Assembly: GCA_023954195.1 (NCBI GenBank)
Contig: JAMLIK010000006.1
Span: 1 to 64,000, forward strand
Direction: 5' to 3'
Length of the DNA stretch: 64,000 nucleotides
Origin: Xanthobacteraceae bacterium
GTDB taxonomy: Bacteria > Pseudomonadota > Alphaproteobacteria > Rhizobiales > Xanthobacteraceae
Position 1 is the stretch's first letter. Every line of letters begins with the position of its first letter. The notes under the pieces were generated by a model. That model searched no databases. It saw nothing but the letters and a program-made list of their open reading frames with translations, and was not told the DNA's origin. The position numbers were made by a program, and so were the translations under genes. Shown here piece after piece: positions 24,398-29,020 of the stretch.

Positions 24398-25723
24398 TTG
24401 GCTGAACCGGATCGGGGTGGGAAACGTCGCGCGGATAATTCCCGCCTGGAACATCTGCGCAATCTGACGCCGGCCGAGCGGTTCGTCCGCGTCGCCGACG
24501 CGGTTTCGCTGGAGGCGGGCGAGCGGGGCGCATTCGCGGGCGGAGCGCTGCCGGCGGCGCTCGCCGACGGCATGATCGAAAACGTCATCGGCACCTTCGA
24601 ACTGCCGATCGGCATCGCCACCAATTTCACCATCAACGGCCGCGACTACCTCGTGCCGATGGCGATCGAGGAGCCGTCGGTGGTGGCGGCCGCCTCCTAC
24701 ATGGCGCGCATCGCCCGGCAATGCGGCGGCTTTCACACCTCCAGCACCGGCCCGCTCATGCGGGCGCAGATCCAGGTTCTCAACGTCGCCGACCCCAACG
24801 GCGCGCGGGCACGGCTGTTGCGGGAGCGCGCGGCGATCCTTGCCGCGGCCAACGAAAAGGACAACGTCCTGATCGGGCTGGGCGGCGGCTGCCGCGACAT
24901 CGAGGTGCATATCTTCGAACAGACGCCGGTCGGCGCCATGGTCGTGGTGCATCTCATCGTCGACGTCCGCGACGCGATGGGCGCCAACACCGTCAACACC
25001 ATGGCGGAAACCGTCGCGCCGATGGTCGAGCGGATCGCGGGCGGCGAGGTGCGCCTGCGCATTCTGTCGAATTTCGCCGACCTGCGCCTGGCCCGCGCCA
25101 TGGTCTCGGTCACGCCGCAGGCGTTGAACACCGAAAGCTATCCCGGCGAGCGGATCGCGCGCGGCATCGTCGAGGCGTGCGCGTTCGCGCAGGTCGATCC
25201 CTATCGCGCCGCGACCCACAACAAGGGCATCATGAACGGCGTCGATCCGGTGGTCGTGGCCACCGGCAACGACTGGCGGGCGATCGAGGCGGGCGCGCAT
25301 GTGTGGGCATCGCGGCTCGGCCGCTACACCTCGCTGTCCAGTTGGGAGATCGACCGCGACGGCAATCTGGTCGGCACGCTGGAAATGCCGATGGCGCTCG
25401 GCCTGGTCGGCGGCGCCACCAAGACCCATCCTTCCGCGCGCGCCGCCTTGAAGATCCTCGGCGTCGAAACCGCGCAGGAACTCGCGGAAGTCGCGGTCGC
25501 GGTCGGCCTGGCCCAGAACATGGGCGCGCTGCGGGCGCTGGCGACCGAGGGCATCCAGAAGGGCCACATGGCGCTCCATGCCCGCAACATCGCGATCGTG
25601 GCCGGCGCGACCGGCGCCGAAATCGAAACCATCGCCGCCGCGCTCGCGCGCGACCATGACGTGCGGGTCGATCGGGCGAAGGCGATGCTGGCGCGCTTGC
25701 GCGGCGGCGAATCCCGCCAATAG
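24398..25723 (+). CDS. mvaA: Class II (degradative) HMG-CoA reductase
   Basis: 441 residues, the size of the Pseudomonas mevalonii enzyme, which oxidises mevalonate to HMG-CoA using NAD and CoA. The catalytic residues align with that enzyme at a constant offset of nine: E92 ([11 protein letters not shown]), K276 ([14 protein letters not shown]), D292 (ATGNDWRA) and H390 ([15 protein letters not shown]). D155 aligns with the Asp linked to NAD preference. [17 protein letters not shown] is the class II signature. TTG at 24398 is chosen since GAGGGAG lies upstream and the family starts here; the open frame extends to 24287. It leads an operon with CoA transferase, hydratase and binding protein. 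Confidence 0.95.
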
Positions 25724-25758
25724 CATCGCCGCCGAATGGTGCGGAACGGGAGGGCAAG

Positions 25759-26997
25759 GTGAGCGACAACCAACACATCGGCGCAACCGGCGAGCGCGCC
25801 GGCCCCCTGAAAGGGCTGGTGGTGCTCGACATCACCCGCGTCGTCGCCGGCCCGTACTGCTCGATGCTGCTGGCCGACATGGGCGCCACCGTAATCAAGG
25901 TGGAACACCCGGACGATCCCGACTACGCGCGGACGTTTCCGCCGTTCGTCGGCCCCGACGACGAACAGCTCAGCGCCTTTTTCACGCAGTTCAACCGCAA
26001 CAAGCTCGGCATCACGCTGAATTTCAAATCCGCCGAAGGCCGCGACCTGCTGAAAAGGCTGATCCGTAACACCGACATTCTGGTCGAGAATTTCCGGCCG
26101 GGCACGATGGACAAGCTCGGGCTTGGCTACGAGGTTCTGAAGGCCATCAATCCGAAGCTGATCTACACCGCGATCAGCGGCTTCGGCCGCACCGGGCCGA
26201 ACGCCTCCAAGCCGGCCTACGACAACACCGGGCAGGCGGCCGGCGGGCTGTGGTCGATGAACGGCTATCCGGACCGGCCGCCGGTGCGCGTCGGCACCAT
26301 CATCGGCGATCTCGCCGCCTCGCTCTACGCCGCCATCGGAACGCTGGCGGCGATCCGCGAGGCGGAGGCCACCGGCCGCGGCCAGGTGGTCGACGTCTCG
26401 CAACAGGACTCGGTGCTGACGCTGACCGAGAACGCCGTGGTCCGCTACACCGCGAAACGGGAAATCGCCGCGCCGCTCGGCAACGACCATCCCTTCGTGC
26501 GGCCCTACGGGCAGTTTCCCTGCAAGGACGGCTACGTGTTTTTCGGCGGCTACACCGACAAGTTCTGGGCCATCACCTGCGCCATGTTCGGCGAGCCGGA
26601 CAAGGCCACCGACCCCGCGATCGACACCATGGAAAAGCGCTTCGATCCGGTGGTCGCGGAAACCCGCGTGAAGCCGCTGCTGGAGCGATGGTTCGGCCAG
26701 TACACCAAGGCCGAGCTTGAGGCGATGGCGGGCGACAAGGTGCCGCTCAGCGCCATCAAGAACATCGCCGAGGTGGTGGAAGACCCGCACATCGCCGCGC
26801 GGCAAATGATCGTCGAGGTGCCGGTCGCGGGCCGGCTGGTCGGCATGTTCGGCCAGCCGATCAAGCTGTCCGGCGCGACCGGGTCGGTGTTCGAAAAGGC
26901 TCCGTCGCCGGGCGAGCACAACGAACAGGTGCTGACCCGGTTCGCCGGCGTGAGCGCGGCGGAGCTGACGCGGCTCAAGGCGTCGGGAGCCATCTGA
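25759..26997 (+). CDS. Family III CoA transferase (CaiB/BaiF)
   Basis: Protein of 412 residues that moves CoA between carboxylic acids without a ping-pong glutamyl ester of the family I type; an Asp is the usual nucleophile. Motifs are GLVVLDITRVVAGPYCSMLLADMGATVIKVE at the start, FNRNKLGITLNFKSAEGR, and SGFGRTGPNASKPAYDNTGQAAGG, whose YD fits the catalytic Asp position. It starts at GTG 25759 after GGGAGGGCAAG. It lies 35 bases after the reductase gene and overlaps the hydratase start by one base (TGATG). In this operon it may activate a mevalonate- or HMG-related acid. Confidence 0.93.
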   Translation: MSDNQHIGATGERAGPLKGLVVLDITRVVAGPYCSMLLADMGATVIKVEHPDDPDYARTFPPFVGPDDEQLSAFFTQFNRNKLGITLNFKSAEGRDLLKRLIRNTDILVENFRPGTMDKLGLGYEVLKAINPKLIYTAISGFGRTGPNASKPAYDNTGQAAGGLWSMNGYPDRPPVRVGTIIGDLAASLYAAIGTLAAIREAEATGRGQVVDVSQQDSVLTLTENAVVRYTAKREIAAPLGNDHPFVRPYGQFPCKDGYVFFGGYTDKFWAITCAMFGEPDKATDPAIDTMEKRFDPVVAETRVKPLLERWFGQYTKAELEAMAGDKVPLSAIKNIAEVVEDPHIAARQMIVEVPVAGRLVGMFGQPIKLSGATGSVFEKAPSPGEHNEQVLTRFAGVSAAELTRLKASGAI

Positions 26998-27749: not shown

Positions 27750-27793
27750 TCGCCGTCCAAAATGAAACCAATGCCGTAACCGGGAGGACCACC

Positions 27794-29020
27794 ATGACCT
27801 TTTCAAAACGCGCCGCCGCCGCGCTGATGAGCACCGCGGTCGCTTTCTGCTCGTTTCCCGCCTTCGCTCAAGGCCCGCGGATTTCCGACGGCGTCGTCAA
27901 GATCGGCGTGATCGAGGACATGTCGGGCGTCTATGCCGACATCACCGGCAAGGGCGCGGTCGCGGCGGCGCAGATGGCGATCGACGAATTCGGCGGCAAG
28001 GTGCTCGGCATGCCGATCGAACTTCTGTCGGCGGACCATCAGAACAAGGCCGATATCGGCGCCGCCGTGGCACGGAAATGGTTCGACACCGACAAGGTCG
28101 ACGCCATCCTCGACGTCGCCTCCTCCTCGCCGGCGCTGGCCATCATGGAGATCGCCAAGGAAAAGAAGAAGATCATCACGCTCAGCTCGCCGGGGTCGAT
28201 CCGGATCACCAACGAGGTCTGCGGGCCCTACGTGGTTCACTGGGCCTATGACACCTATGCGATCGCCAACAGCACCGGGCGCGCCCTGGTGGAAAAAGGC
28301 TACAACACCTGGTACTTCGTGACCGCCGACTACGCTTTCGGCCAGAGTCTCGAAAGCGACACCAGCCGCGTCGTGAAGGAACTCGGCGGCAGCGTGCTGG
28401 GCAGCACCCGGCATCCGGTCGGCACCGCCGACTTCGCCTCCGCCCTGCTGACGGCGCAGGGCTCCAAGGCCAAGGTGGTGGCGCTGGCCAACGCCGGCGG
28501 CGACACCATCAATTCGATCAAGCAGGCGTCGGAATTCGGCCTGACCCAGGGCGGGCAGAAGCTGGCGGCGCTGGCCGCGTTCATCAACGACGTGCATGGC
28601 CTTGGATTGAAGCAGGCGCAGGGGCTGACCATCACCGAAGCCTCCTACTGGGACATGAACGACGAGACGCGGAAATGGTCGCGGCGCTTTTTCGAGAAGG
28701 TGAACGCGATGCCGAACATGCTTCAGACCGGCACCTATTCATCGGTTCTTCACTACCTGCGGGCGGTCGAGGCGGCGGGCACCGACAGCACCGAGGAGGT
28801 GATGGCCAAGATGCGCGCGACGCCGGTCAACGACGTGTTCTTCAAGAACGGCAAAATCCGTGAGGACGGCCGCATGGTTCACGACATGTATCTGTTCGAG
28901 GTGAAGAAGCCGGAGGAGTCGAAAGCGCCGTGGGACTACTACAAGCTGCTGGCGACGATTCCCGCCGACAAGGCGTTCCAGCCGCTGTCGCTCTCCAAAT
29001 GCCCGCTGGTGAAGAAGTAA
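27794..29020 (+). CDS. ABC transporter substrate-binding protein, Liv/urea-type (Peripla_BP_6)
   Basis: Periplasmic binding protein of 408 residues with a Sec signal peptide (MTFSKRAAAALMSTAVAFCSFPAFAQ). The mature part starts GPRISDGVVKIGVIEDMSGVYADITGKGAVAAAQMA (first part of lobe I), the usual start for branched-chain amino acid-like binding proteins. ATG at 27794 follows GGGAGG; the open frame starts at 27746. It ends the reductase operon and has no permease or ATPase next to it. By context it would bind the operon's substrate, such as mevalonate or a related acid, and share a transporter encoded elsewhere. Confidence 0.9.
   Translation: MTFSKRAAAALMSTAVAFCSFPAFAQGPRISDGVVKIGVIEDMSGVYADITGKGAVAAAQMAIDEFGGKVLGMPIELLSADHQNKADIGAAVARKWFDTDKVDAILDVASSSPALAIMEIAKEKKKIITLSSPGSIRITNEVCGPYVVHWAYDTYAIANSTGRALVEKGYNTWYFVTADYAFGQSLESDTSRVVKELGGSVLGSTRHPVGTADFASALLTAQGSKAKVVALANAGGDTINSIKQASEFGLTQGGQKLAALAAFINDVHGLGLKQAQGLTITEASYWDMNDETRKWSRRFFEKVNAMPNMLQTGTYSSVLHYLRAVEAAGTDSTEEVMAKMRATPVNDVFFKNGKIREDGRMVHDMYLFEVKKPEESKAPWDYYKLLATIPADKAFQPLSLSKCPLVKK

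Follow-up and report, generated by a model that had tools for sequence, protein, structure and literature searches.

A putative mevalonate-catabolism operon, linked to a MocR-type regulator and carrying an accessory CoA-transferase and hydratase, in a Xanthobacteraceae bacterium

The window analysed here, a stretch of 64,000 nucleotides from a Xanthobacteraceae bacterium (contig JAMLIK010000006.1), carries a MocR-type regulator gene facing away from a tightly packed series of four genes. These encode, in order, a class II HMG-CoA reductase (HMGR), a family III CoA-transferase (CoAT), a crotonase-fold enoyl-CoA hydratase (ECH) and a periplasmic solute-binding protein (PBP), all positioned as in the original prediction (Table 1). 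Domain matches (PF02515, PF00378 and PF13458) bear out its assignment of a family III CoA-transferase, a two-glutamate hydratase and a binding protein downstream of HMGR. HMGR and CoAT are separated by 35 bp, CoAT and ECH share one base and, given a PBP start at 27746, ECH and PBP overlap by 4 bp. The ATG at 27794 is probably the genuine PBP start and is the better fit to a signal peptide. The four genes presumably form a single transcription unit.

Table 1. Genes and DNA elements of the locus, with window coordinates
Feature	Position	Strand	Evidence and remarks
MocR-type regulator	22740..24197	-	PF00392 + PF00155; GTG 24137 likely true start
17-bp element copy 1, candidate MocR operator	24152..24168	+	adjoins mocR start; TACASTTTYGGACAATT
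Element copy 2 with imperfect inverted partner	24302..24333	+	upstream of HMGR; six-locus alignment
Class II degradative HMG-CoA reductase (HMGR), 441 aa, TTG start	24398..25723	+	TIGR00532, 437 bits
Family III CoA-transferase (CoAT), D155	25759..26997	+	PF02515, 402 bits
Crotonase-fold enoyl-CoA hydratase (ECH), E110 and E130	26997..27749	+	PF00378, 194 bits
Periplasmic solute-binding protein (PBP), branched-chain amino acid type	27746..29020	+	PF13458, 376 bits

HMGR, scanned as the longer frame beginning at 24287, exceeds the cut-off of the degradative HMG-CoA reductase model TIGR00532 (437 against 260 bits), and its solved relatives are 9v7y, 6dio and 1qax (593 bits for the last). The 441-residue protein contains the four catalytic residues E92, K276, D292 and H390, confirming the class II reductase that had been predicted. 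Its TTG start lines up with ATG, GTG or TTG starts in orthologs, and the ATG at 24287, upstream of a conserved DNA element, is unlikely to be used. Judged by its family, the enzyme would be degradative and oxidise mevalonate with NAD+. The genome gave no match to HMG-CoA synthase (PF01154) at E <= 0.001, which argues against a biosynthetic role. In the biosynthetic direction HMGR would make mevalonate, and CoAT and ECH would supply anhydromevalonyl-CoA for some product, much as fungal SidI and SidH make anhydromevalonyl-CoA biosynthetically; SidH is indeed a distant relative of ECH. We consider this extremely improbable and reject it on the missing synthase match; the degradative family of HMGR, the PBP in the operon and the lyase partners found among relatives weigh against it as well.

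The regulator unites a GntR domain (PF00392) and a class I aminotransferase domain (PF00155) in one protein, as in the MocR type, and reaches no cut-off among the 25 NCBIfam matches listed; by eye, the GTG start agrees better with orthologs. The degradative HMGR, the MocR partner and the catabolic nature of the operon, as expected by the original prediction, are supported. Of 55 proteobacterial HMGR neighbourhoods, 43 include a MocR-like gene, mostly divergent and adjoining HMGR. With up to three mismatches allowed, the 17-bp element matches the window twice (chance mean 0.06), its pattern being derived from these same two sites; with up to two, the whole genome offers no third site. At a loose setting used without a shuffle control (at most 9 of 32 letters different), a sequence resembling copy 2 lies next to HMGR at 13 of 60 other loci and at none of the remainder. 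MocR is a candidate controller of the operon and the element its candidate operator. As for PBP, which matches the solved structure 3i09 (E 2e-130), no permease was seen next to it when the neighbourhood was judged by eye; it may take part in import for the pathway.

CoAT belongs to family III by its PF02515 match and by D155, the catalytic aspartate of this family, which is expected in a (P/A)YD or (P/A)FD motif. Here it lies within AYDNTGQ and does not vary across the 20 aligned rows. None of the seven NCBIfam families matched reaches its cut-off; the best equivalog models are succinyl-CoA:mesaconate CoA-transferase (NF041294, 306 against 700) and the SUGCT-type succinate-glutarate CoA-transferase (NF052585, 274 against 750). 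In a profile search CoAT is about equally similar to YfdE, a Brucella CoA-transferase and SUGCT, the human SUGCT (9br6, deposited as succinate-hydroxymethylglutarate CoA-transferase) ranking third. AlphaFold models and fold searches gave back just the known families, and the CoAT model is weak near the aspartate (pLDDT below 50 at residues 155-179). Activation of acetoacetate by CoAT was rejected, by reasoning only, because the hydratase would then have no role.

The catalytic glutamates of ECH, E110 and E130, are invariant in all 14 aligned rows, the window sequence included. ECH is one of 40 matches to PF00378 across the genome, 39 of them above the cut-off, and among the best 25 of its 73 NCBIfam matches no cut-off is reached. 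Alignment to 5zai places Ser68, Gly139 and Gly229 in the acyl pocket, the two glycines standing where 5zai has bulky residues. LiuC and AUH resemble ECH in the crotonase fold, the glutamate pair and a glycine at position 139 (Gly141 of LiuC). They differ at Arg69 of LiuC, which is credited with binding 3-methylglutaconyl-CoA (PMC6048173) and which corresponds to Ser68 of ECH, a serine in all 14 aligned rows. H86, K88 and R144 are invariant in the same alignment and could act as carboxylate binders in place of the absent arginine. Elsewhere in the genome no LiuC-type hydratase was detected, since no two-glutamate row among the 29 of 38 other members aligned (an alignment that is rough for distant members) has arginine at the LiuC position. 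The fungal mevalonyl-CoA hydratase SidH (7oeq), which works in biosynthesis, shares the crotonase fold and the proposed ECH chemistry in reverse, but it is a distant match, no closer than other crotonases: by sequence ECH scores 155 bits with LiuC and 145 with SidH, hence is no nearer SidH than LiuC, and in Foldseek LiuC ranks 20, under other crotonases, with SidH absent from the best 50 matches.

Searches with CoAT under strict E limits led to 15 records, namely 13 genomes other than our own and two plasmids, one of them from Rhodococcus. The fetched stretches of all 15 contain HMGR, and those of seven contain HMG-CoA lyase. All 15 also have a hydratase: 11 carry ECH, and four an unrelated type made up of two genes, the first of which matches PF13452. 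With six further loci from a set of 80, the CoAT loci number 21; every one has a hydratase (15 an orthologous ECH, six the two-gene type, which Pseudomonas matsuisoli also has). Neorhizobium alkalisoli has CoAT with ECH. Of 98 loci, 79 lack CoAT, and none of these, 25 of which are under 15 kb, has ECH or the two-gene pair at ortholog level; two hold an ECH at 33-36%. A quickly built tree of 61 HMGR rows, which has long branches, shows nine changes of the CoAT label, at least five of them forced by starred branches. Two of the four genomes of our own genus with an HMGR match (L114 and L115) have MocR opposite HMGR-PBP and neither CoAT nor ECH in the fetched stretch, which indicates that the module comes on top of mevalonate use. 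The CoAT-hydratase module turns up beside different HMGRs, in Alpha- and Gammaproteobacteria as well as on one actinobacterial plasmid, and these sequence comparisons suggest a mobile addition to a pathway of mevalonate catabolism. The operon itself was probably acquired horizontally; its GC content (66.7%) equals that of the window (65.9%), so base composition gives no support for transfer. In Rhodococcus pseudokoreensis, an apple-rhizosphere bacterium, CoAT-ECH is preceded by an ATP-dependent hydrolase pair that resembles caprolactamase.

Pseudomonas mevalonii catabolises mevalonate via mvaA and mvaB. The window HMGR is of the same degradative class II type (1qax), and the end reactions would match; the window operon differs in having no HMG-CoA lyase, in its added CoAT, ECH and PBP and in the adjoining MocR. 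A lyase does exist elsewhere in the genome: of three matches to NF004283, only one, on contig C1, exceeds the cut-off (419 against 246 bits), and it adjoins two carboxylase genes that we read as the methylcrotonyl-CoA carboxylase type. The lyase and the putative methylcrotonyl-CoA genes to be sought outside the operon were both found, side by side. The original prediction had the operon working without a lyase, CoAT and hydratase taking its place. In such a scheme HMG-CoA would lose water to give 3-methylglutaconyl-CoA, which would proceed in reverse to methylcrotonyl-CoA. Consistent with this, carboxylase genes of the required type exist in the genome, and neither the window operon nor the stretches fetched for L107, L118 and L119 include a lyase. 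Yet the genome encodes a lyase, lyase and CoAT/hydratase occur together in L048, L052, L108, L109, L159, L161 and L162, and the route leaves the CoA-transferase without a role. Given the genomic lyase and its counterparts in the fetched stretches of 11 of the 21 CoAT loci, CoAT and the hydratase are not lyase replacements, and we reject this very unlikely scheme. The loci combining HMGR, lyase and CoAT fit 3-methylglutaconate or HMG feeding HMG-CoA equally well.

We favour, with slightly better than even confidence, a MocR-linked, probably horizontally acquired operon for mevalonate catabolism with an accessory activate-and-hydrate module, whose likeliest acid is anhydromevalonate. Imported mevalonate would be converted by HMGR (mevalonate + CoA + 2 NAD+ to HMG-CoA), and the lyase encoded elsewhere would cleave the product. 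CoAT would turn an alpha,beta-unsaturated branched C6 acid into its CoA ester, and ECH, or the two-gene hydratase in some relatives, would add water at C3. Anhydromevalonyl-CoA would so be hydrated to mevalonyl-CoA, from which CoAT would pass CoA to the next anhydromevalonate, freeing mevalonate for HMGR; CaiB/CaiD pass CoA comparably with crotonobetaine. Sequence establishes the gene families, the catalytic residues, where the lyase lies, the steady company of HMGR and a hydratase in the records found and the return of the module next to different HMGRs; the substrate, direction and CoA donor are inferred. The original prediction named the right kind of chemistry in CoA activation of a branched C6 acid combined with addition or loss of water.

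The module might instead feed HMG-CoA directly. A SUGCT-like CoAT would activate imported 3-methylglutaconate or free HMG, ECH would hydrate the ester to HMG-CoA where it is unsaturated, and the lyase would cleave HMG-CoA, with HMGR serving mevalonate in parallel. Such chemistry is that of LiuC/AUH and of human SUGCT (third in the profile search), Gly139 of ECH equals Gly141 of LiuC, and 11 of 21 CoAT loci include a lyase; moreover methylglutaconyl (printed 'transb-ethylglutaconyl'; the reading is ours) appears among fungal ferrichrome acyl groups (PMC8781417). The 3-methylglutaconyl-CoA first predicted is a possible intermediate, but the carboxylate-side arginine of LiuC is replaced by serine throughout the 14 rows, and the association of CoAT with HMGR is closer than that with the lyase. 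HMGR would be superfluous here, yet it accompanies CoAT in 15 of 15 records against seven for the lyase; these counts, with a hydratase likewise in all 15, favour anhydromevalonate over direct entry, which we judge rather unlikely.

The carnitine system CaiB/CaiD, in which a family III CoA-transferase and a crotonase hydratase interconvert free acids through CoA esters, pairs the same enzyme families; it differs in its neighbours and is only distantly similar in sequence (CaiB, 1xk6, 102 bits to CoAT). In Haloarcula a class III mesaconate CoA-transferase (Mct) is followed by a mesaconyl-CoA hydratase (Mch) (PMC5592240), which parallels the window operon in class III CoA transfer and subsequent hydration of an unsaturated branched acid and differs in its dicarboxylic C5 substrate and MaoC-type hydratase; on the mesaconate CoA-transferase model CoAT reaches 306 of 700.

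Mevalonate catabolism by HMGR and lyase, the latter encoded elsewhere here, thus appears separable from an accessory CoAT-hydratase module, of which no description was found in the literature searched. Fungal hydroxamate siderophores contain anhydromevalonate as an acyl group. Tentatively, and less likely than not, the module may be specialised for using the acyl parts of these siderophores. Anhydromevalonate in its trans or cis form (from fusarinines, coprogens and some ferrichromes), perhaps also 3-methylglutaconate (ferrichromes), would be brought to mevalonate or HMG-CoA and burned via HMGR and HMG-CoA lyase, the Rhodococcus hydrolase pair first opening the cyclic amide or hydroxamate. The literature searched, mostly without full texts, yielded no bacterial genes for the use of siderophore acyl groups. 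If anhydromevalonate or methylglutaconate is the substrate, the module would let bacteria draw carbon from the acyl groups of fungal siderophores, and the CoA-transferases and two unrelated hydratases, acting on tertiary-alcohol C6 acyl-CoAs, may be new enzymes.

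The four close-set genes of the window operon encode the class II degradative HMG-CoA reductase (HMGR), a family III CoA-transferase (CoAT), a crotonase-fold enoyl-CoA hydratase (ECH) and a periplasmic binding protein (PBP), and the gene of the MocR regulator lies divergently on the opposite strand. The HMGR start is a TTG backed by ortholog alignment, and the four catalytic residues originally named for this enzyme are all right. The genes downstream resemble, by eye, a polyamine cluster (ornithine decarboxylase, acetyltransferase, RidA-like protein, homospermidine synthase).

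Positions of the features in the window and in the comparison loci (L-numbers)
Sequence	Feature	Position	Strand
Window	17-bp element beside mocR	24152-24168	
Window	Second copy of the element, with imperfect inverted partner, upstream of HMGR	24302-24333	
Window	HMGR start	24398	+
Window	HMGR, CoAT, ECH, PBP	24398-29020	+
Window	Possible polyamine cluster (by eye)	29493-34383	
L031	Two-gene hydratase	12289-13139	
L034	Two-gene hydratase	13525-14441	
L120	Two-gene hydratase	7199-8253	
L161	CoAT match in two pieces	9001-10199	
L162	HyuA/HyuB pair	7707-11956	

The distribution of CoAT was surveyed in genome collections that are samples, with scoring limited to the best few candidates per genome. 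The window CoAT as query recovered 7/397 genomes at the order level (E <= 1e-130), 3/385 at the class level and 5/398 at the phylum level (both E <= 1e-120), its own genome counted each time; the L120 CoAT recovered 5/293 genomes of a gammaproteobacterial order, and a CoAT alignment (E <= 1e-150) 1/369 of that class, none new. All 13 distinct genomes other than the window's own were fetched and carry HMGR in the stretch, as do the two records found by tblastn against plasmids. These 15 records thus have HMGR in 15/15 and a hydratase in 15/15 (ECH in 11, a two-gene type in four), and HMG-CoA lyase in 7/15 (L108, L109, L120, L156, L159, L161 and L162). An HMGR search in named genomes, yielding 80 loci, added six CoAT loci (L031, L034, L037, L048, L052 and L059), all with a hydratase (ECH in four, two-gene type in two) and four with the lyase. 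Over all 21 CoAT loci the hydratase is found in 21 and the lyase in 11; among the 79 loci without CoAT, 25 are shorter than 15 kb.

The pairing of a family III CoA-transferase with a hydratase is an established means of activating and hydrating an unsaturated acid, as in CaiB/CaiD. Haloarcula Mct/Mch is another example (PMC5592240). In the window, CoAT would activate an unsaturated acid and ECH, or the two-gene type, would hydrate its CoA ester; the product would be mevalonate, making HMGR obligatory, and the acid anhydromevalonate, whose hydrated form is mevalonate. The lyase could then be supplied from leucine breakdown, which may be so in the window's genome. Alternatively, the product could be HMG-CoA and the acid methylglutaconate, which predicts a constant lyase and a dispensable HMGR; the reverse is observed, and the constancy of HMGR beside an inconstant lyase argues for mevalonate. 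Methylglutaconyl-CoA stays compatible with the ECH pocket, since the invariant H86, K88 and R144 could bind a carboxylate. Other pocket residues lend mild support to anhydromevalonate. According to PMC6048173, Arg69, Gly141 and Tyr231 of MxLiuC correspond to Phe70, Tyr142 and Trp232 of Ms3HPCD, and Arg69 is reported to stabilise a hydrophilic substrate; the window ECH has Ser68, Gly139 and Gly229, invariant in 14/14 aligned rows and, by eye, retained in the Rhodococcus ECH. Predicted models (pLDDT 85 for ECH, 77 for CoAT) give the family folds and nothing further.

The original prediction had CoAT and the hydratase taking the place of the lyase, which is not supported, and the genome does have a lyase: of three NF004283 matches, one exceeds the cut-off, at 419 bits, on contig C1. 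It adjoins a biotin-carboxylase-type and a carboxyltransferase-type gene, which we read, from gene order and not from an enzyme-specific model, as methylcrotonyl-CoA carboxylase. HMG-CoA synthase gave no match in the genome.

Among the ARRANGEMENTS layouts, L107, L118 and L119 keep the window order, MocR beside HMGR-CoAT-ECH-PBP, and L048 inserts the lyase between ECH and PBP. L059 and L110-L112 have PBP, ECH and CoAT opposite a GAF/PucR-type regulator, then an HMGR 60-61% identical; L052 is similar, with the lyase after CoAT and PBP reversed, and L108 forms a single run GAF-HMGR-CoAT-ECH-lyase. On a Rhodococcus pseudokoreensis plasmid (L162), lyase-HMGR-GAF regulator stands opposite a caprolactamase-like HyuA/HyuB pair (456 and 238 bits against a cut-off of 1000), directly followed by CoAT (62.5%) and ECH (55%). 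In L052, L059, L108 and L110-L112 (the six of 98 loci with it) and in L162, the GAF/PucR-type regulator replaces MocR beside HMGR, and CoAT is found in every one. The CoAT of L161 (Rhizobium sp. CC-CFT758 plasmid) may be broken: its match is split, and the incomplete gene table has HMGR, ECH and lyase, with CoAT absent.

HMGR-lyase-CoAT followed by the two-gene hydratase occurs in Pseudomonas L031 and L034, in L120 and in L156; L157 and L158 resemble L156 without the lyase. A solute-receptor-like gene (by eye) separates CoAT from the hydratase in L120, and a gap of ~1.1-1.2 kb in L156-L158. The first hydratase gene matches PF13452 (70 bits in L034); Pfam gives no hit for the second. We call the pair hotdog-fold on account of its position and of an HRIHYD motif, which we take as a sign of that fold. 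L159 carries ECH although it belongs to the same family as L120, and the two-gene type in the usual place of ECH is possibly a non-orthologous displacement by an unrelated type.

A 17-bp element, TACASTTTYGGACAATT, has one copy next to mocR and a second upstream of HMGR, with no third copy in the 4.18-Mb genome at <=2 mismatches; the pattern derives from these same two sites. A similar sequence adjoins HMGR in 13/60 other loci scanned at a loose setting without shuffle control. Together these make MocR control of the operon likely, with the element as candidate operator. A MocR-like gene, mostly divergent next to HMGR, was found in 43 of 55 proteobacterial HMGR neighbourhoods (41 of the 80 loci and 14 fetched later), among which the transporters, mostly named by eye, differ (Tct, TRAP and ABC types).

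In a quickly built HMGR tree with 61 rows, several on long branches, the CoAT label switches nine times, at least five of them forced by starred branches. The CoAT of L118 is 88% identical to that of the window and its HMGR 70%, which suggests that the CoAT block moved between HMGR backgrounds. Own-genus genomes have an HMGR match in 4/7 (53-56% identity), and the two fetched, L114 and L115, have MocR and PBP beside HMGR. Such minimal loci also occur in the own family (L116, L117). In these four, HMGR is 54-55% identical, and no CoAT, ECH or lyase lies in the fetched stretches. MocR-HMGR-PBP is a simpler mevalonate locus in this group, and the window operon therefore looks acquired, despite a GC content that shows no difference.

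Searches of open-licence PMC papers brought up no earlier description of such an operon in bacteria. Anhydromevalonyl groups and, as we interpret a garbled word, methylglutaconyl groups occur in fungal siderophores according to PMC8781417, which suggests, speculatively, that fungal siderophores may be the ecological source of either acid.
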